Source: Cyclobacteriaceae bacterium SS2 (GTDB taxonomy: Bacteria > Bacteroidota > Bacteroidia > Cytophagales > Cyclobacteriaceae). Taken from it: 33,788 nucleotides of DNA. Below the pieces are notes generated by a model that was not told the DNA's origin, searched no databases, and saw only the letters and a list, made by a program, of their open reading frames with translations. Location of the stretch: positions 73 through 33,860 of the forward strand of contig JAHCMM010000287.1 of NCBI GenBank assembly GCA_019192515.1, in the 5' to 3' direction. Positions 21,307 through 33,463 of this stretch are shown here, in pieces. The translations under genes were made by a program, and so were the position numbers. The first letter of the stretch is position 1. Each line of letters opens with the position of its first letter.

Positions 21307-21699
21307 TCAGAAAGAGGTAGTTGTTTCCATGAACTGGCGCAGCCAGGTGAGTGCAGAATCTTTATCAGTAAAAAGTCGGGTGGGCTTGACTGGTTTGTTG
21401 ACAGAAACATAGAAGTTGGCAGCCATTTTTACTACGGCTGAGTCTACTAATATTGCACTTGCTGTAACCAGTTCGTTGCCTTCTTTTGCCAAAAAGTCTC
21501 TGGCTTCTTTGGTTGAATGCTTGATTTTGGATACGTCGAAAAGGCAGGGATAGGATACACCATTTGAGTGCTCTACGCGCTTAGATACAAGGTGTTTGGT
21601 GATCTCTAGAGTAAGCTCCTGAAGGTCGTAAAAACTGCATTTCATGATGCCATTCTCAATAACGATGCTTCCATACTGAAAATCTATGGATTCTTTCAT
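21307..21699 (-). CDS. STAS/SpoIIAA-like (DUF7793-type) small soluble protein
   Basis: ENGIMKCSFYDLQELTLEITKHLV...PCLFDVSKIKHSTKEARDFLAKEGNELVTASAILVDSAVVKMAANFYVSVNKPVKPTRLFTDKDSALTWLRQF; resembles a Bacteroidota STAS-like family from memory. Confidence 0.6.
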   Translation of the reverse strand: MKESIDFQYGSIVIENGIMKCSFYDLQELTLEITKHLVSKRVEHSNGVSYPCLFDVSKIKHSTKEARDFLAKEGNELVTASAILVDSAVVKMAANFYVSVNKPVKPTRLFTDKDSALTWLRQFMETTTSF

Positions 21700-21782
21700 T
21701 TCATCTAATTAATCATAAATACCAACTAACGCCATAGATATTTTGCATTAAAACTATTTCTAAAATAACCAATCAGCAGAAT

Positions 21783-24251
21783 ATGGCAAAAATCAAACAT
21801 AATAACTTTGTGAAGACGGTCGACGAAGTTATTACCGCAGCGAAGGAAAAAGGCGTCGTTCATTTGTATGCGCAAGGTCATACAACCGACAGAAGATACC
21901 TAACAATTAATCAACAAAAAACGCTTCACTTCGGAACATGCGGCTATCTGGGTCTGGAACATCACCCATTTGTCAAGGAGTCTGCAATCAAGGCCATCGA
22001 GAACTATGGAACACAGTTTCCAATGTCAAAAACATATATCTCCAACCCATTGTATTCAGAGCTGGAAATGCTGGTAGAAGAAATGTACCAGGCTCCGGTT
22101 GTGATTTCAAAAAACTGTACCATTTCGCACCTGGCTACTATTCCCATCATTGTGTCAGAAGAAGATGCTGTAATTCTGGATCATCAGGTTCATGCCAGCA
22201 TTCAGGAGTCAGTTCAGAAGATGCTTACCAAGGGGGTAACCGTGGAAATGATCCGTCACAACAACCTGGAGATGCTGGAAGAAAAAGTGAAGTCACTTAA
22301 GGATAAGCATCAGAAGATCTGGTATATGTCGGATGGTGTTTATTCCATGTATGGTGATTTTGCCCCTATTAGAGAATTGATTGCCCTGGCTGAGAAATAT
22401 GAACAGCTACATCTGTACGTAGATGATGCACACGGAATGAGCTGGGCAGGAAAGAATGGGACAGGTTATGTGATGAGTCAAATGCCTGAAGGACTTTATA
22501 GAAAAATGGTCCTTACTGCTACTTTAGGAAAAGGTTTTGGAGCCTGCGGTGGCGTATCTGTATTTCCAAATGAGGAGTGGAGGCGAAAAGTGAAGACCTT
22601 TGGCGGTCCAAACACATTTTCTGTACAGTTGGAGCCGCCCATCCTTGGAGCTGCCGTTGCTTCAGCCAAGATCCATCTAAGTGATGAGATCAATGATCTT
22701 CAGTTGGAGCTGCAAAACAGAATCAACTATTGTAATACTTTGCTTGGCAGAACACAGCTTCCACTGGTGGCTGAAACAAAAAGTCCGGTATTCTTTATAG
22801 GCACAGGGGTAATGGGAACAACCAATGAGTTTGTGAGTAGACTCATTGAAGATGGTGTATACGTAAACCCGGCACTGTTTCCGGCAGTACCGATGAAAAA
22901 TAATGGTTCACGCTTTACTATTTCACTCAACAATACATTTGAAGATATCGAGGTACTGGTTGATACTATGGAGCGAAACTTTGACGCTTCACTTAAAGCC
23001 ACTAACCAGACACAGGATAAGATCAGGAAAGCATTTAAGATGCCTGCTTTGGAAGAGCAAACCAACGAGCTGGATGAGATCCTGCAAAAGTCTTCTATTG
23101 CCCATAATTCACATGATTTTTCATCCATCAATCTGAAGGTATATGATACCATTCAGGATGTGGATAAAGACCTTTGGAACGGGAAGCTTGGTCATCGTGG
23201 AATGTTTGACTGGAATGGCATGAGCTTTTTGGAAAGATCATTTAGCGGTCACGTGAAACCCGAAGATAACTGGGACTTTAAATATTTTGTGGTAACAGAT
23301 AAAGTGGGAACACCGATCCTGGTAACCTTCCTGTCTTCTACCGTATGGAAAGAGGATGCGTTTGCCAGGGCTTCGATCTCTGCTCAAATAGAGCTCGTAA
23401 GAAAAAAGGATCCTTATTACCTCACATCCAAGGTCCTCATGATGGGAAGCCTCTTTACAGAGGGAGAGCATTTCTACCTAAACATGGAGCATAACCTCTG
23501 GAAAAACGCTGTGCTCATGTTTACGGAAAGACTTTTTAAAGAGCAGGAAAGCTGCGGTGCAACCAATATTGTACTTCGTGATTTCACGGAAAATACAGAG
23601 TTGACCAAGCTGTTTCTGGAACACGGTTTTGTGAAGATGGATATGCCTGAAACATGCATTATTGAAGACCTTTCGTGGAAGGATGAAGAGGAGTTTAGGG
23701 GACTACTGAGCAAACGAAATAAGAAGCACTTCAAACAAGAAGTTAGAAAGTACGCATCCTGTTTTAATGTGGAGGTGGTAGATAAGTTATCAGATGAAGG
23801 ACTACAGCATGCTTTCAATCTCTTCCTGCAGGTCAAAAACAAGAACCTGGCCCTGAATGGCTTTACTTATCCATATAGGTTATTCGAGGAGATGAATAAT
23901 GATCCTTCGTGGGAATTTGTGGTCCTCCGACTCAATGAGGCTACATCGGATCACAGATTGCCTGTAGCAGTGGCCTTCTGTCATAAGAATGCCAGGGATA
24001 CCTATAGTGGTATGTTCTTAGGTCTCGACTATGACTTTAATTTTGACTATGGCGTATACAGACAAGCGCTATATCAGTGCATCAAAAGAGCTAAGAGTTT
24101 GGGATGCACCAAGGTGAATTTAGGCGTTTCGGCTACAGTAGAAAAGAAAAAGCTAGGTGCCACCACCTATCCAAGGGTTGCTTATGTGAATACACAGGAC
24201 AACCTGAGCATGGAAATCATGGAACATACTTTGTTAGTCACAAAACATTAA
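21783..24251 (+). CDS. Bifunctional alpha-oxoamine synthase (SPT/AONS-like PLP enzyme) - GNAT/FemAB-like acyltransferase fusion
   Basis: N-terminal ~420 aa: NFGTCGYLGLEHHP-like start (LHFGTCGYLGLEHHPFVK), YVDDAHGMSWAGKNGTGY, TLGKGFGACGGV (PLP lysine context). C-terminal ~390 aa: LRDFTENTELTKLFLEHGFVKMDMPETCIIE, SKRNKKHFKQEVRKYASCFNVEVV, AVAFCHKNARDTYSGMFLGLDYDFNFDYGVYRQALYQCIKRAKSLGCTKVNLG. Confidence 0.88.
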   Translation: MAKIKHNNFVKTVDEVITAAKEKGVVHLYAQGHTTDRRYLTINQQKTLHFGTCGYLGLEHHPFVKESAIKAIENYGTQFPMSKTYISNPLYSELEMLVEEMYQAPVVISKNCTISHLATIPIIVSEEDAVILDHQVHASIQESVQKMLTKGVTVEMIRHNNLEMLEEKVKSLKDKHQKIWYMSDGVYSMYGDFAPIRELIALAEKYEQLHLYVDDAHGMSWAGKNGTGYVMSQMPEGLYRKMVLTATLGKGFGACGGVSVFPNEEWRRKVKTFGGPNTFSVQLEPPILGAAVASAKIHLSDEINDLQLELQNRINYCNTLLGRTQLPLVAETKSPVFFIGTGVMGTTNEFVSRLIEDGVYVNPALFPAVPMKNNGSRFTISLNNTFEDIEVLVDTMERNFDASLKATNQTQDKIRKAFKMPALEEQTNELDEILQKSSIAHNSHDFSSINLKVYDTIQDVDKDLWNGKLGHRGMFDWNGMSFLERSFSGHVKPEDNWDFKYFVVTDKVGTPILVTFLSSTVWKEDAFARASISAQIELVRKKDPYYLTSKVLMMGSLFTEGEHFYLNMEHNLWKNAVLMFTERLFKEQESCGATNIVLRDFTENTELTKLFLEHGFVKMDMPETCIIEDLSWKDEEEFRGLLSKRNKKHFKQEVRKYASCFNVEVVDKLSDEGLQHAFNLFLQVKNKNLALNGFTYPYRLFEEMNNDPSWEFVVLRLNEATSDHRLPVAVAFCHKNARDTYSGMFLGLDYDFNFDYGVYRQALYQCIKRAKSLGCTKVNLGVSATVEKKKLGATTYPRVAYVNTQDNLSMEIMEHTLLVTKH

Positions 24252-24258
24252 TTTTGCC

Positions 24259-25971
24259 ATGAATATCGTCCACCCAATGGAAAGCACCATACGAGATCGT
24301 ATAGAGGAGATCAGTAGACTAATTTTTGAAGTAGCGAATGGAAATTTCGCATATAAAATACCCAGCTCACCCCACGATACAGATGAATTGGAAGCCATCA
24401 TCCTGGGTGTAAATATGCTTGGTCAGGAGCTTCGGAAATCTACCGTTTCCAGAGATTATATGAAGAGGATCTACGACGGGGTTATTGATATCCTCATCAT
24501 TATGGATGCCAATCTGAAGATTAAAGCTGTGAACAATGCCGCCTGTGAGCTTTTGGGGTATCAGGAAGATGAATTGATTGGTAAGCCATTGGAGCAACTC
24601 CTTTCGGAAGACTCGAAGAACTCACCATTTGTCAGAGTCGTTGAGGATCTGGCTAGATTAGGACAATCTAAAAACAAAGAATTGAATTTTGTGAGTCGGG
24701 ATGGCTATGAACTACCCACTTCCACTTCGTTTTCTACTCTTGAGAATGAAAATGAGGAGGAAAAAGAGGTTATGATCATTGCTAAGGATATCTCGCAACT
24801 TAAAGCTACTGAGTTAGCTTTGAGAAAGGCGAGAGATCAGGCAGAGGAAGCTAACAGGTCGAAAGGTCGTTTCTTGTCCAATATGAGTCATGAGATCAGA
24901 ACACCTTTGAATGGTATCCTGGGATTTTCTGAGTTGTTAAAAAACACCGCAGCTACCAAGATGCAGAAGGAGTATCTTTCGTTGATCCATTCTTCAGGAG
25001 AGACACTTGCCAAGCTGCTCAATGATGTGCTGGACCTTAACAAGATGGATCTTGACAAACTGGTTATTGAAAAGGTTCCGTTTGACTTCCGATATAATGT
25101 GGACTCAAACCTCCATCCGTATAAGTATCTGGCCAAAGAAAAGAATCTGACTTTCGATTTTGTAGTGGAAGAAAGCGTGCCTGAGATCGTGATCAGTGAC
25201 CCCACCAGGATCAACCAGATCATCATCAACTTTGTGAGTAACTCCATGAAGTTTACTGAAGATGGTAGCATTCATTTGAAATTCAAAGGGATTAGGAGAG
25301 AAGGCATGTTGCTGCTTCATGGTGAAGTAATAGATACAGGGATTGGGGTAGCGCACGATAAGCGAGATACGATTTTTGAAACGTTCACACAATCTGATAG
25401 TTCTACTACCAGAAAGTATGGTGGATCGGGGCTGGGCCTGGCTATCTGCAAGCAGCTGGTTGGATTGATGGATGGGCAGATCGGAGTGGATAGTCCGATC
25501 AGTGAAAATCAACAAGGTTCCAGGTTTTGGTTTACAATTCCTATTGAAGCTGGTGTGAAACCGGAAAAATCAGCTAAAGATCATTCGGAAAACAACTTTA
25601 AGCTCAAGGAAAACAAAAATATTCTTGTAGTGGATGACAACAATGTAAACCTGCTGCTGATCAAGAAAATGCTGATGTCGGCAGGAGCAAAAGTTACCAG
25701 TGCCATTCATGGTAAAGACGCCATCGAAAAGGTGCAGAGCAAAGATTTCGACATGATCTTTATGGATATCCAGATGCCTGTGATGGATGGTTTTGATGCC
25801 ACAATTGCGCTGCGCAAACAAGGCTATGAAAAGCCAATCCTGGCGCTATCGGCGAATGTAGATAAGGAAAATATTGAAAAATGTCTGACCGTAGGAATGA
25901 ATGATTACCTGCAGAAGCCTTATCACAAGAAGCAATTGATGGGATTGCTGGAAAAGTGGGCTTCAAATTGA
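24259..25971 (+). CDS. Cytosolic hybrid sensor histidine kinase (HAMP-like/PAS - HisKA - HATPase_c - REC)
   Basis: PAS ILIIMDANLKIKAVNNAACELLGYQEDELIGKPL; H-box GRFLSNMSHEIRTPLNGILGFSELL; G-boxes DTGIGVAHD, YGGSGLGLAICKQLV; receiver NILVVDDNNVNLLLIKKML, DMIFMDIQMPVMDG, LALSAN, YLQKPYHKK. No TM segment visible. Confidence 0.94.
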   Translation: MNIVHPMESTIRDRIEEISRLIFEVANGNFAYKIPSSPHDTDELEAIILGVNMLGQELRKSTVSRDYMKRIYDGVIDILIIMDANLKIKAVNNAACELLGYQEDELIGKPLEQLLSEDSKNSPFVRVVEDLARLGQSKNKELNFVSRDGYELPTSTSFSTLENENEEEKEVMIIAKDISQLKATELALRKARDQAEEANRSKGRFLSNMSHEIRTPLNGILGFSELLKNTAATKMQKEYLSLIHSSGETLAKLLNDVLDLNKMDLDKLVIEKVPFDFRYNVDSNLHPYKYLAKEKNLTFDFVVEESVPEIVISDPTRINQIIINFVSNSMKFTEDGSIHLKFKGIRREGMLLLHGEVIDTGIGVAHDKRDTIFETFTQSDSSTTRKYGGSGLGLAICKQLVGLMDGQIGVDSPISENQQGSRFWFTIPIEAGVKPEKSAKDHSENNFKLKENKNILVVDDNNVNLLLIKKMLMSAGAKVTSAIHGKDAIEKVQSKDFDMIFMDIQMPVMDGFDATIALRKQGYEKPILALSANVDKENIEKCLTVGMNDYLQKPYHKKQLMGLLEKWASN

Positions 25972-28510: not shown

Positions 28511-29986
28511 TCAAGTGCCCGCCGACCTGTCAAGCTTAAATATGATGGGTAAAACCATTTTTACTTTCACGGTTTCACCACCTTCGCGGCCAGGGTTAAA
28601 CCGGGGAGCGTTTCTCAGAACACGCTCAGCTTCCTGATCGCATCCGGCTCCTATGCCTTTAATCGCCTTTACCTCAGTGATCGACCCTTCCTCGTCTACA
28701 ATGAATTCTACATACACTCGGCCTTCTATACCAATTGATCTAGCCGTAGACGGGTACTTGAGATTTTCAGAAATATACTTGTAAAAAGCCTGCAGACCCC
28801 CTGGGAACTCTGGCTGATTCTCCACAATTGTAAAAACCTGATTTGAACGAGGGGCCTTGCTGCTCTGAGCATCAGCCATATAATCCTTCAATTCCACCAC
28901 CACCCCAATGCGGTCTTTGAGGTAAAAAAAACTCACCATATTTCCTTCCACATGTAGTTTTCTTAGGATGTCATAGACGGTGCCGACTTCCTCACCTTCT
29001 TCCACGGCCAGTTCCTTGTACGCGTAAGTCTTTTCGGGGTGTTTACTATGTAGCTCTTCGATCAGTTCTTTGGCCTGTGGTGGTATTTCTGCTTCCAAAA
29101 CAGCACCCTCTGCGATCTTCTCAATTTCCTTGTCCAGCTCATTGTTGCAGGCAAATGTGGTGATGAGTACTGCATAAAGTGTACCTAGTGTTGCCAGTTT
29201 CCATCCACTGATGTATTTCATCTGGTTTTTCATGGCATGGATACGTTTGAGTACAGAGCCACCATGAAATGAATTGGCCAGCGCCCAACCATTCGCTTTG
29301 AGGGTGTGTTTGATCAGGGTATTTGAATAATCTGATAAATTAAATTGTTTGAGCGCTATTCGGTCTGCATCATACTCATGGATCTTTTTCATCTCCTTCT
29401 GGAGCCACCATGCACTGGGCAGGAACCAACAAAAAATTCTGAAAATATTAACTATGATAGTGTCAAGCGAGTGTAATTGCTGGGCATGGGCCAGTTCGTG
29501 ATGCAGAATGGCCTGATGATCCTTGTCGGAAATAGCTTCTTCATGGATGAAGATCCATTTTAAAAACGTAAAGGATCCTCGCTCTTTGATAAGATGGGTC
29601 CGAATACCATCAATAGTGGCTGGTGTGCTCTTTCTGACAAGTTTCCATATTGATCCCAGCCCCGCCAGAAAGTACAGCAATAGAGCACTGGTGATCAGGA
29701 GGTATACCCATGTGAGCACAGCGTACTGATCAATAGCTGATTGGGTGCCAACTACTATTGGGGACAGACTATGCGTCATAATGGAATTCAACTCTGTGGA
29801 TGCTCCGCCTGTGTTTGTGCCGAGAAACCCTTCAAATGAGATTAAGGGGACTATGACAGCAACAGGTATTGTGAAGAGCAACAAAAACCGCATAAGCTGG
29901 TACTGTCGTTCCCCTCTCATAGTAAACATGTACACCAAAGTAAGCGCAAGGTGTATAATGGCCAACTCGATGAAATAAGCTATCAA
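28511..29986 (-). CDS. BlaR1-like M56 family membrane peptidase with C-terminal TonB domain
   Basis: Several TM helices; zinc motif HHELAHAQQLHSLDTI; WWLQKEMKKIHEYDADRIAL; C-terminal PEFPGGLQAFYKYISENLKYPSTARSIGIEGRVYVEFIVDEEGSITEVKAIKGIGAGCDQEAERVLRNAPRFNPGREGGETVKVKMVLPIIFKLD (TonB_C). Confidence 0.93.
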   Translation of the reverse strand: MIAYFIELAIIHLALTLVYMFTMRGERQYQLMRFLLLFTIPVAVIVPLISFEGFLGTNTGGASTELNSIMTHSLSPIVVGTQSAIDQYAVLTWVYLLITSALLLYFLAGLGSIWKLVRKSTPATIDGIRTHLIKERGSFTFLKWIFIHEEAISDKDHQAILHHELAHAQQLHSLDTIIVNIFRIFCWFLPSAWWLQKEMKKIHEYDADRIALKQFNLSDYSNTLIKHTLKANGWALANSFHGGSVLKRIHAMKNQMKYISGWKLATLGTLYAVLITTFACNNELDKEIEKIAEGAVLEAEIPPQAKELIEELHSKHPEKTYAYKELAVEEGEEVGTVYDILRKLHVEGNMVSFFYLKDRIGVVVELKDYMADAQSSKAPRSNQVFTIVENQPEFPGGLQAFYKYISENLKYPSTARSIGIEGRVYVEFIVDEEGSITEVKAIKGIGAGCDQEAERVLRNAPRFNPGREGGETVKVKMVLPIIFKLDRSAGT

Positions 29987-30345
29987 CTTTTATCTTTTTT
30001 AAGTTCTTTGAGCAATGCTTCCAGTTCTTTCAGACTGAGGTTGTCTTCCTTGGTAAAGAATGAAACCATTTGCTGATAAGAACCACTGAAATACTTACCC
30101 ACGAAGCTTTTCATGAAAGTCTTCGTGTATTCCTCTTTCGAGATCAATGGATGATATTGATGTGATTTCCCAAAAGCTTCGTGTCCTACAAAGCCCTTTT
30201 GCTGGAGTATCCTGACGATCGTAGAAACGGTGTTATATGCAGGTTTAGGCTCGGGAAGCTGCTCAATGATATCTTTTACAAAGGCATTTTTTAAATCCCA
30301 AAGGACCTGCATGATTTCTTCTTCTGCTCGCGTCAACTCTTTCAT
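29983..30345 (-). CDS. BlaI/MecI/CopY family transcriptional repressor
   Basis: LTRAEEEIMQVLWDLKNAFVKDIIEQLPEPKPAYNTVSTIVRILQQKGFVGHEAFGKSHQYHPLISKEEYTK; ATGA overlap with the M56 gene. Confidence 0.95.
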   Translation of the reverse strand: MKELTRAEEEIMQVLWDLKNAFVKDIIEQLPEPKPAYNTVSTIVRILQQKGFVGHEAFGKSHQYHPLISKEEYTKTFMKSFVGKYFSGSYQQMVSFFTKEDNLSLKELEALLKELKKDKS

Positions 30346-30637: not shown

Positions 30638-33463
30638 ATGAAATTAAATTCAGCAAATCAGCTTTATGGAATGCTATTGGGGACGGTGGTCTTGTTTTGT
30701 TCCGTCCCATTGGCAGCTTCAACTAATCCGGAGGATTGTTTATGTGAGTTTGGGGTTCAATACATGTCCGTAAGATATGACGGACCCCAGGGAGCTACTG
30801 TGAAGGTATATGCTACCCGAAATCAGCGCGATTTTGTTCAACAGTTCGAAAATGTGGACAATGGAGAGGTACTTTTTATTGACAAATCAGATTTTCTTAA
30901 GGGAAGTGTAAAGACCAAGACTTACCTCGTGGTGGAAGGAGAGCCCGAGTCTGAAGTTTCGTATCATACTTCATGTTCAGAGGATATCCTAAATCAGACG
31001 AAGGGCTATTTTACCGTCACAGCTTTTCAGGATGCTTTCGGAAATGCCTGTGCAAATGAGCTTGGACTAACTGCAACAATCAAGCATAATCAATGTTACG
31101 GAGAAGTGCATGGTGAGATTGCTTTGAGTATTTCCGGAGGTTCGTCACCATACGAGATTCTGTGGGCTGATGGAAGTAGTGATCTGATCCGAGCGGATCT
31201 TGGCAATGGTAATTATCAGGTTTCTGTCTCTGATTTTATGGGAAATTCAGTAGATACTACCTTCATCATTTCCAGTCCTGATCATTTACAAATAGCAGGT
31301 GAAATCAGTGTTGCCGGTTGCGGCGAGTCAGATGGTGGAGCAATTGAATTGAGCATCTCAGGTGGCGTAGCACCTTATCAAATTCTTTGGTCCACCGGTG
31401 ATACGACTCCTTCGATCAAAACTCTTCCGGGAGGTACCTACAATGTTGAAGTGATTGATTCAAATGGATGTGGCGTAAGTGATGCTTACGAAATTCCTCA
31501 GAGGTCTCCTATCTCTGTGCAGATAGAACAAAATAATTGCCAGGATGGAAAGCTAATCGCTGTCGTTGATGGAGGCGATTCTCCATATAATTATTTCTGG
31601 TCAACAGGGGAATCAGGGGCAGCGATAGCAGTCTCGGAGCCCGGAGAATATTGGTTGAGCGTAATTGATGCATCCGGTTGTGAAGGTTATGATACCCTTA
31701 CCATTGATCAGCTCAACCTTATAGAAGCTTCAGCCGAATTCAATACCCCTTCTTGTTTTGGAGGAAGTGATGGTGCCATCCTATTATCTGTTTCCGGTGA
31801 CCCATCCCAGTATGAATATGTGTGGAGTAATGGTGAGACAACCCGGGATCTGACCAATGTAGAATCAGGTACCTACCAGGTAACGATTACTGCCACCGAC
31901 GGATCATCATGTAGCCGGGAGTTTTCATTCACACTACCGGATGCACAAGCCACATCGGTCTATGCAACAGTTACTCAAATCAATTGCCTGGGACTGGGTT
32001 CAATAACTCTTGATTCCCTGGTGGGATCGGGGCCTTTTGAAATTGAATGGTCCACGGGGGAGACTACCTCTTCAATTGACAACCTCAACACGGGAAGTTA
32101 TGGATTGATAATTACTGACTCCCATGGCTGTGAGGTATCGAGAAATTTCACCATCATGGAATATCAGCCCCTGCAGGTGAGTATAGATTATGATTTTTGT
32201 GTCAACAGCAGCCTGCGAGCCATAGTGAGGGGAGGAACTGGTCCGTATACCTATACATGGAATGGTGTTTCGGGTAATTATTCAATGATTCCTGAAGCCA
32301 TCGGAACATACGAGATGGTGGTTACAGACAGTCAGGGGTGTAAGGATTCTTCCACTGTGGAGATCACGGATATTTTCACGCCGCTCAATATCAGTGGTAC
32401 TACGACACAGCTTACCTGCGACGACCCTGCTTCAGGTTCAATCGATCTCAGTGTAAGTGGTGGAGAGGGACCTTATACTTATGTGTGGTCAAATGGGGCC
32501 ACAGGACCGAGTATTAGTGGGCTTACTTCAGGCTATTATGAGGTGAAAGTAACAGATCAGAAGGGGTGCGAAAAGTCCAGGTTGTTTTCCATTCGTCCCC
32601 TGGAAATCATGAGTTTGACAACAGATGTCACCATGCCAGGATGCGAAGATGGTGACGGTGCAATTAGCGTAAGTGTAGCCGGTGGAACAGCACCCTATAC
32701 TTTTCAGTGGGATGGCGGAATGACTGGTGAGTCTATTTCTAATTTGACCGCAGGTGTTTATTCACTCACAGTTGATGATGCAGCTGGCTGCCAGGTCGTG
32801 GAGTCTTTTACACTTATGCTATCAGATACCTGTGAGGTTCCGGATCCTGATAAACCAGCAGGTGAGTCTTGTTGTGATGGTAAAGTATCCCAATTGTCAC
32901 TGGAGTATCAGGGCACTGTTTCAGGTTATGTCAAGGTGGTCCAGAAGATAGATGGTCAAACTGTTTTTGCGGAAAAGGTAAGCCCTGGTGGTGTTTTTAC
33001 ACTTCATGGACAAGACCGTAAAGGCACATTAGGTCCTGAAATTATCATATATGTCGATGGTAATAATGCAGCTCAGTTCCATACCAGTTGTTCTGAACCC
33101 ATAGGCCCTGGTTCGGTGAGTGGCGATTTTCTGGTACTTTCAGGAGAAAGCCGAAATGGCGGTGCACTATGTCCTGTTGATGAGAAGACTTCTGTACAAA
33201 CTATGGAATATAACCTCTATCCAAATCCGTATGTTGGAGAGGGCAAACTGAAAGTTAAATTCTCCCCAAATGAAGAGAAGTCAATTAGTGTGAGGTTGTA
33301 TGATTTAACCGGTAAACTCAGGGCATCAATGAATAAGGAATATGCTCCCAGTCAAACATTGATGGATATCAGTGAGATCACTACTGAGCTGTCAAGAGGA
33401 CAGTACCTGGTGAAGTTCAAGATAGGATCACAGGAACACATTGAGCGGTTAATCATTCAGTGA
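30638..33463 (+). CDS. Secreted surface protein with 8 SprB-like repeats and a T9SS type A sorting domain
   Basis: Signal peptide; repeats of the form (S)GGxxPYxYxWSxGxTxxxIxxLxxGxYxVxVxDxxGC; C-terminal YNLYPNPYVGEGKLKVKFSPNEEKSISVRLYDLTGKLRASMNKEYAPSQTLMDISEITTELSRGQYLVKFKIGSQEHIERLIIQ. Confidence 0.93.
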   Translation: MKLNSANQLYGMLLGTVVLFCSVPLAASTNPEDCLCEFGVQYMSVRYDGPQGATVKVYATRNQRDFVQQFENVDNGEVLFIDKSDFLKGSVKTKTYLVVEGEPESEVSYHTSCSEDILNQTKGYFTVTAFQDAFGNACANELGLTATIKHNQCYGEVHGEIALSISGGSSPYEILWADGSSDLIRADLGNGNYQVSVSDFMGNSVDTTFIISSPDHLQIAGEISVAGCGESDGGAIELSISGGVAPYQILWSTGDTTPSIKTLPGGTYNVEVIDSNGCGVSDAYEIPQRSPISVQIEQNNCQDGKLIAVVDGGDSPYNYFWSTGESGAAIAVSEPGEYWLSVIDASGCEGYDTLTIDQLNLIEASAEFNTPSCFGGSDGAILLSVSGDPSQYEYVWSNGETTRDLTNVESGTYQVTITATDGSSCSREFSFTLPDAQATSVYATVTQINCLGLGSITLDSLVGSGPFEIEWSTGETTSSIDNLNTGSYGLIITDSHGCEVSRNFTIMEYQPLQVSIDYDFCVNSSLRAIVRGGTGPYTYTWNGVSGNYSMIPEAIGTYEMVVTDSQGCKDSSTVEITDIFTPLNISGTTTQLTCDDPASGSIDLSVSGGEGPYTYVWSNGATGPSISGLTSGYYEVKVTDQKGCEKSRLFSIRPLEIMSLTTDVTMPGCEDGDGAISVSVAGGTAPYTFQWDGGMTGESISNLTAGVYSLTVDDAAGCQVVESFTLMLSDTCEVPDPDKPAGESCCDGKVSQLSLEYQGTVSGYVKVVQKIDGQTVFAEKVSPGGVFTLHGQDRKGTLGPEIIIYVDGNNAAQFHTSCSEPIGPGSVSGDFLVLSGESRNGGALCPVDEKTSVQTMEYNLYPNPYVGEGKLKVKFSPNEEKSISVRLYDLTGKLRASMNKEYAPSQTLMDISEITTELSRGQYLVKFKIGSQEHIERLIIQ

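Follow-up and report, generated by a model that had tools for sequence, protein, structure and literature searches.

The gene at positions 21783..24251 (+ strand) of the window, the 33,788-nucleotide stretch of Cyclobacteriaceae bacterium SS2 DNA analysed here, encodes an alpha-oxoamine synthase (AOS) and a tandem-GNAT acyltransferase of the Fem type in a single chain. As an enzyme architecture this one-chain AOS-acyltransferase is new and well supported, and it sits in a regulatory module that is strongly conserved. With a chance close to even, it makes an N-acylated or N-aminoacylated aminoketone signal as a single enzyme and has its own cytoplasmic receptor encoded alongside. No published work was found on AOS-GNAT fusions or on DUF7793, the family of the divergent neighbour, and no small-molecule signal of this type was found described for Bacteroidota in the open-licence literature.

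An AOS and a tandem GNAT in one chain

The fusion gene has an ATG start, encodes 822 aa and has no internal stop. The AOS occupies residues ~1-405, followed by a linker (~406-448) and the tandem GNAT (~449-815). NCBIfam AOS models cover residues ~7-398, with PRK07505 (288 bits) ahead of bioF (160 bits) and SPT (149 bits). PRK07505 stays under its curated cutoff of 342 and is still the nearest model, the subfamily being uncharacterised. The SPT model fails by a wide margin (cutoff 640), as does the CqsA/LqsA-type alpha-hydroxyketone synthase model (81 bits, cutoff 428), and the BioF, KBL and ALAS scores are also far under their NCBIfam cutoffs. The nearest solved AOS structures are 8xha (E 4e-40) and its kin. 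In a small tree with long branches, the fusion AOS clade is split at 100/100 from the host SPT, CapA-type and BioF-like enzymes, and two AOS-only relatives (L112, L114) share the clade.

The PLP lysine is K250, in TLGKGFGACGG, and DDAHGMSWAG corresponds to D214-G223; both motifs had been picked out in the first-pass annotation of this DNA. Across 24 diverse family members H137, D214, H217, K250 and R377 never vary, and across 91 members they are at least 98% conserved. They line up with the host SPT motifs VHAS, D-AH, FSKS and RF. The fusion thus has the PLP lysine, the stacking histidine, the aspartate to the pyridine nitrogen, the DxAH histidine and the carboxylate arginine of the AOS superfamily. 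In these alignments all five are kept. Since the catalytic residues are intact, family knowledge indicates that the AOS half should be PLP-active.

In the C-terminal ~390 aa, PF13480 matches residues 646-788. Among 58 homologs, PF13480 is found in 56 and PF04339 (FemAB_like) in 22. The AlphaFold model from the 58-sequence alignment has a pLDDT of 91.5 and a pTM of 0.86. A Foldseek search of the PDB with this model matched FemX (1.7e-11), FemA, Sba18/Sbb17, MprF, a clavulanate tandem GNAT and N-myristoyltransferases; the best matches have E values of 1.7e-11 to 1e-9, an identity of 10-15% and an overall TM of about 0.5. A sequence-profile search of the same half against PDB sequences gave only weak chance matches. 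The model contains two GNAT-like domains in the Fem arrangement, and by its predicted structure the C-terminal half is a tandem GNAT of Fem-type fold. Such a fold would be compatible with acyl-CoA, acyl-ACP or aminoacyl-tRNA as donor and makes no choice among them. The computed pI of this half is about 6, which gives no hint of a basic surface for RNA binding. The earlier reading of one 822-aa frame that joins an AOS with intact PLP residues to tandem GNAT folds is thereby confirmed by the ORF coordinates, models, alignments and AlphaFold/Foldseek results, and the acyltransferase-fold match sought for the C-terminal region was found in FemX and other tandem GNATs.

The fusion is not a chance joining, because 80 loci of Flavobacteriia and Cytophagia encode its whole length, at 45-93% identity. 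It is present in 28 of the 295 sampled genomes of the class and the family spans Bacteroidota. In these 295 genomes the C-terminal half never stands alone but always lies in a frame of ~800-860 aa, the exceptions being contig edges and one broken copy. Plasmid copies were absent from PLSDB at 1e-50. The occurrence is patchy, and multi-copy and broken copies exist. Second copies that are broken or split lie beside an intact DUF7793 gene (L103 14284-17216; L160 4172-5309; G250:C1:1214942-1216139), which suggests turnover.

Regulatory partners, operator and mobile elements

DUF7793 protein: The divergent neighbour of the fusion (21307..21699, - strand) is a protein of 130 aa that matches PF25056 at 126 bits. 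Its model (pLDDT 88) resembles 2q3l (E 7.7e-7) and 4xs5 (TM 0.65-0.66), and the protein is predicted to have a SpoIIAA/STAS-like fold. Of 111 fusion loci, 105 have a DUF7793 gene no more than 3 kb away, and DUF7793 is present in all 28 fusion-bearing genomes as compared with 144 of 295 overall. In places DUF7793 genes stand in tandem, three to six in a row (L151 4241-6676, L170 2746-4116, L162 4506-6698).

HAMP-like regulator: A hybrid histidine kinase of 570 aa with PAS, HisKA, HATPase and receiver domains (24259..25971, + strand) starts 7 bp past the fusion gene and has no predicted membrane or hydrophobic span. Its first ~65 residues (24259..24450, + strand) form a HAMP-like module (13 of 20 members give a HAMP match), and the same module is carried by AraC-type regulators of flavobacteria. 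The flavobacterial counterpart is a HAMP-PAS-AraC transcription factor whose gene lies beyond DUF7793. A profile of the first 68 residues of the AraC proteins matches the kinases of the window lineage at 1e-13 to 1e-18, and thus one input module is joined to different outputs. The distant fusion members L107, L108, L110 and L111 are without the regulatory module. A HAMP-like regulator is encoded within 5 kb of the fusion in 99 of 111 loci, and several of the loci that miss it or DUF7793 are contig ends. Only one fusion, one DUF7793 gene and one HAMP-like module were found in the host genome, and all three fall within 4.3 kb. In a by-eye comparison, the strongest HAMP-like matches in the 295 genomes are nearly all beside DUF7793 and most are beside the fusion. 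The pair of DUF7793 and HAMP-PAS regulator occurs without the fusion too; such pairs could be like receptor solos or could regulate something else.

Direct-repeat operator: DUF7793 and the fusion are separated in the window by a divergent intergenic region of 83 bp (21700..21782). In flavobacterial loci this region contains TTGYYN5RGGA twice at a spacing of exactly 21 bp. The 1.28 Mb of AraC-type loci hold 34 such two-copy sites, 33 of them just upstream of the fusion, and shuffled sequences hold none. A scan of 18 whole genomes gave 30 sites (1-4 per genome; 0 in the reversed control). The repeat was not found in the window or in other kinase-type loci, an absence that would fit with the AraC protein as its binder. 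It is a putative operator that, judged from the sequence pattern, is probably bound by the AraC-type regulator. Two operator matches, one inside a coding gene (L223) and one near unrelated genes (L222), were set aside as possible chance.

Micropeptide genes: Eight of the extra operator sites are located beyond the SusC end of the same cassette, except that one of them is upstream of a Cas9 gene instead. Seven precede a conserved ORF of ~40 codons (M-EWYEIIG-V-W--GLYLRGKIYE---YNDSWR-RKK), and the half-sites keep a fixed distance of 87-88 and 66-67 bp to its start codon. The eighth (L217 15931) has, by eye, this same leader, but its ORF has a variant start codon. The genes for these ~40-aa micropeptides with a single membrane span are at L215 8313-, L216 14178+, L217 11898/14421/17417+, L218 3422-, L219 9963- and L220 6892-, often with their own terminator-like hairpin. 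The copies adjoin defence-like cargo, namely a PDC-S15 FRG protein, a PD-T4-4/PDC-M47 ATPase, Cas9 and a PDC-S37 helicase. A conserved cassette of SusC-SusD-S9 peptidase, a DUF6520-like small Cys peptide and MauE lies between the operator-bearing element ends (L009, L062, L074, L224 and other flavobacterial loci).

Mobile-element genes: The next same-strand gene after the fusion is rteC in 52 of 81 loci, at a median gap of 49 bp, and the RteC family match beside the flavobacterial fusion is 245 bits. The Gillisia copy has rteC, TraG, TraM and a coupling protein nearby and a phage-type integrase ~57 kb away. These hallmarks of a CTnDOT-type element (rteC, TraG, TraM, coupling protein) apply to flavobacterial copies only and not to the window copy, which is surrounded by housekeeping genes and shows no element genes in its vicinity. 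Chromosomal copies of Cytophagia likewise have no element genes seen nearby, and the sensor pair is still present. Excision and transfer of CTnDOT are under the control of RteC, which is itself downstream of RteAB (PMC1976400). Because rteC adjoins the fusion and RteC acts downstream of RteAB, the fusion module may occupy the place where RteAB input would act. The window also encodes a repressor of the BlaI type and an M56 membrane peptidase that is BlaR1-like and has a TonB C-terminal domain (28511-30345), and a protein of 941 aa that contains six SprB repeats as well as a sorting tail for type IX secretion (30638-33463).

Proposed product and competing explanations

The type of chemistry is well founded, and from the enzyme and its neighbours we infer the substrates, product, ligand binding, signalling role and circuit logic as follows. 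According to the chemistry of its family, the AOS half would condense an amino acid and an acyl thioester with loss of CO2 to give an alpha-aminoketone. The Fem-type tandem-GNAT half would then move an acyl or aminoacyl group onto the amine of this aminoketone. A membrane-permeable product, most likely a signal, would be released, and the HAMP-PAS regulator encoded next to the fusion would read it within the cell. The STAS-like DUF7793 protein would be the sensor partner of this regulator, a role that the near-constant linkage suggests. The synthase gene would itself be a feedback target of the regulator, via the direct-repeat operator and its probable AraC-type binder in flavobacteria, and via the co-transcribed hybrid kinase in the window lineage. 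On the mobile elements of flavobacteria this switch would probably drive rteC and the membrane micropeptide too. With an aminoacyl-tRNA as donor, ring closure of the product to a pyrazinone would be conceivable, which is only an idea. A chemical signal is preferred to a membrane lipid because of the near-constant sensor and regulator neighbours and the transfer switch on mobile DNA. The conserved DUF7793 and HAMP-PAS partners, the operator and the mobile context, all of which the first-pass annotation missed, point to signalling. The wider proposal of a new Bacteroidota signalling system, with an N-(amino)acyl aminoketone, a STAS-like/HAMP-PAS receptor, AraC or kinase outputs, rteC-controlled conjugation and a micropeptide regulon, is doubtful as a whole and is offered tentatively.

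The first-pass annotation proposed, among its options, a one-polypeptide synthase of keto-ceramide or N-acyl-capnine, and for this the domain types and the reaction order fit. Condensation followed by N-acylation stays plausible as a two-step scheme because the bacterial order Spt, bCerS and CerR is a precedent, in which both Spt and bCerS reside in the cytoplasm and their action is proposed to come ahead of that of CerR (PMC11087976). Of the products named, the diffusible acyl-aminoketone keeps its support and the two lipids do not. The separate host genes for SPT, capnine synthase and ceramide synthase were looked for and all three types were found, which counts against the lipid reading. 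One host gene encodes an SPT that scores 605 bits with the SPT model for Bacteroidota, and the same stretch encodes an epimerase/CerR-like protein and a YghO-like protein of 377 aa. The latter is 28% identical (5.8e-28) to YghO of E. coli BL21, which serves as N-acyltransferase in the sphingolipid cluster of E. coli (PMC9386255). This sphingolipid-type operon (L002, L227; contig C179) also holds a short-chain reductase and a FabZ-like dehydratase. An ortholog of the CapA-type cysteate acyltransferase is encoded elsewhere in the host genome (L004, 561 bits to 28eh), whereas the fusion reaches just 67 bits against 28eh/CapA and falls outside the CapA/SulA group. No homology was detected between the C-terminal half and bCerS/YghO (hhalign E 0.3, probability 0.2%; no hmmsearch match). 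A ceramide or sulfonolipid synthase was rejected because the host has separate genes and the C-terminus is without bCerS homology, and the product of the fusion is expected to differ from both lipids. Together with the failed SPT model and the separate AOS clade in the small, long-branched tree, the complete separate pathway makes keto-ceramide or N-acyl-capnine synthesis very improbable.

The regulator linkage would equally fit a stress-regulated lipid or a secondary metabolite, and since the DUF7793 and HAMP-PAS pair occurs without the fusion, these regulators may sense something else. Neither an exporter nor a secreted sensor is encoded with the fusion. It is unlikely that the fusion makes a specialised membrane lipid, such as an N-acyl aminoketone or an unusual sphingoid-like molecule, which the adjacent regulator induces under stress without any signalling. 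AOS and N-acyltransferase chemistry would follow the Spt-bCerS order (PMC11087976), the host encodes sphingolipid enzymes, and linkage to a regulator is compatible with ordinary regulation; on the other hand, the SPT, bCerS-like and CapA genes are already separate, the distribution is patchy at 28 of 295 genomes, and the conserved partners are sensors, rteC and the micropeptide rather than lipid export, reductase or head-group genes. Less probable again is a secreted antibiotic or toxin-like metabolite made by a single-gene cargo of integrative elements and controlled by the element. The rteC and tra genes around flavobacterial copies, the single biosynthetic gene with its patchy, multi-copy and broken occurrence, and the defence-like cargo near the micropeptide copies would suit such a cargo, whereas the same sensor pair accompanies chromosomal Cytophagia copies with no element genes seen nearby, and genes for resistance or export show no consistent linkage. 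In AOS fusions of the SxtA type, the GNAT domain probably loads or edits the acyl group that the AOS uses. There is a slim chance that the GNAT half of the present fusion likewise serves its AOS half rather than acylating the amine, as GNAT and AOS are joined in SxtA and the fold alone leaves donor and acceptor unfixed. However, SxtA has an acyl carrier domain between the two and none is seen in the fusion, and the nearest folds are Fem-type and amine-directed transferases.

If the proposed synthase-receptor circuit holds, it would be common to flavobacteria and cytophagas and would combine a compact synthase with a receptor of new architecture and a defined operator. Element transfer under rteC control would then have an input besides the tetracycline-induced RteAB. 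Should the product turn out to be no signal, the one-chain AOS-acyltransferase would still be a useful new enzyme architecture.

Comparison with known systems

CqsA/CqsS and LqsA/LqsS-LqsR: In Vibrio and Legionella, respectively, a single-gene AOS signal synthase is encoded with a sensor kinase or regulator. The fusion is similar as a single-gene AOS synthase beside a sensor kinase or regulator. In contrast, it has a tandem GNAT, its putative receptor is without a membrane span, and it has a STAS-like partner.

DPO-VqmA: In Vibrio, the cytoplasmic PAS regulator VqmA reads DPO, a small signal derived from amino acids, and this offers a pyrazinone parallel. The DPO system has no AOS or GNAT synthase, and cyclisation of the fusion product is conjecture.

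FemX/FemABX, Sba18/Sbb17 and MprF: These share the tandem-GNAT fold with the C-terminal half, and differ from it at the low identity and TM given above. Sba18/Sbb17 are aminoacyl-tRNA-dependent.

Alb29 and BioF2: The closest solved AOS, 8XHA, is Alb29 (PMC11906848), which is a stand-alone enzyme. BioF2 (Rv0032) of M. tuberculosis consists of an AOS and an extra domain, and its function is unknown (PMC12910592). The extra domain is N-terminal in BioF2 and C-terminal in the fusion, and no conserved module is reported for BioF2.

Spt and bCerS: In Caulobacter, and in E. coli BL21 with spt-yghO, condensation by an AOS is followed by N-acylation, which is proposed to precede reduction (PMC11087976), and the fusion would share this order of steps. 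In contrast to the fusion, the two activities are there on separate polypeptides, bCerS is without detectable homology to the fusion C-terminus, and the host of the fusion owns that pathway in addition.
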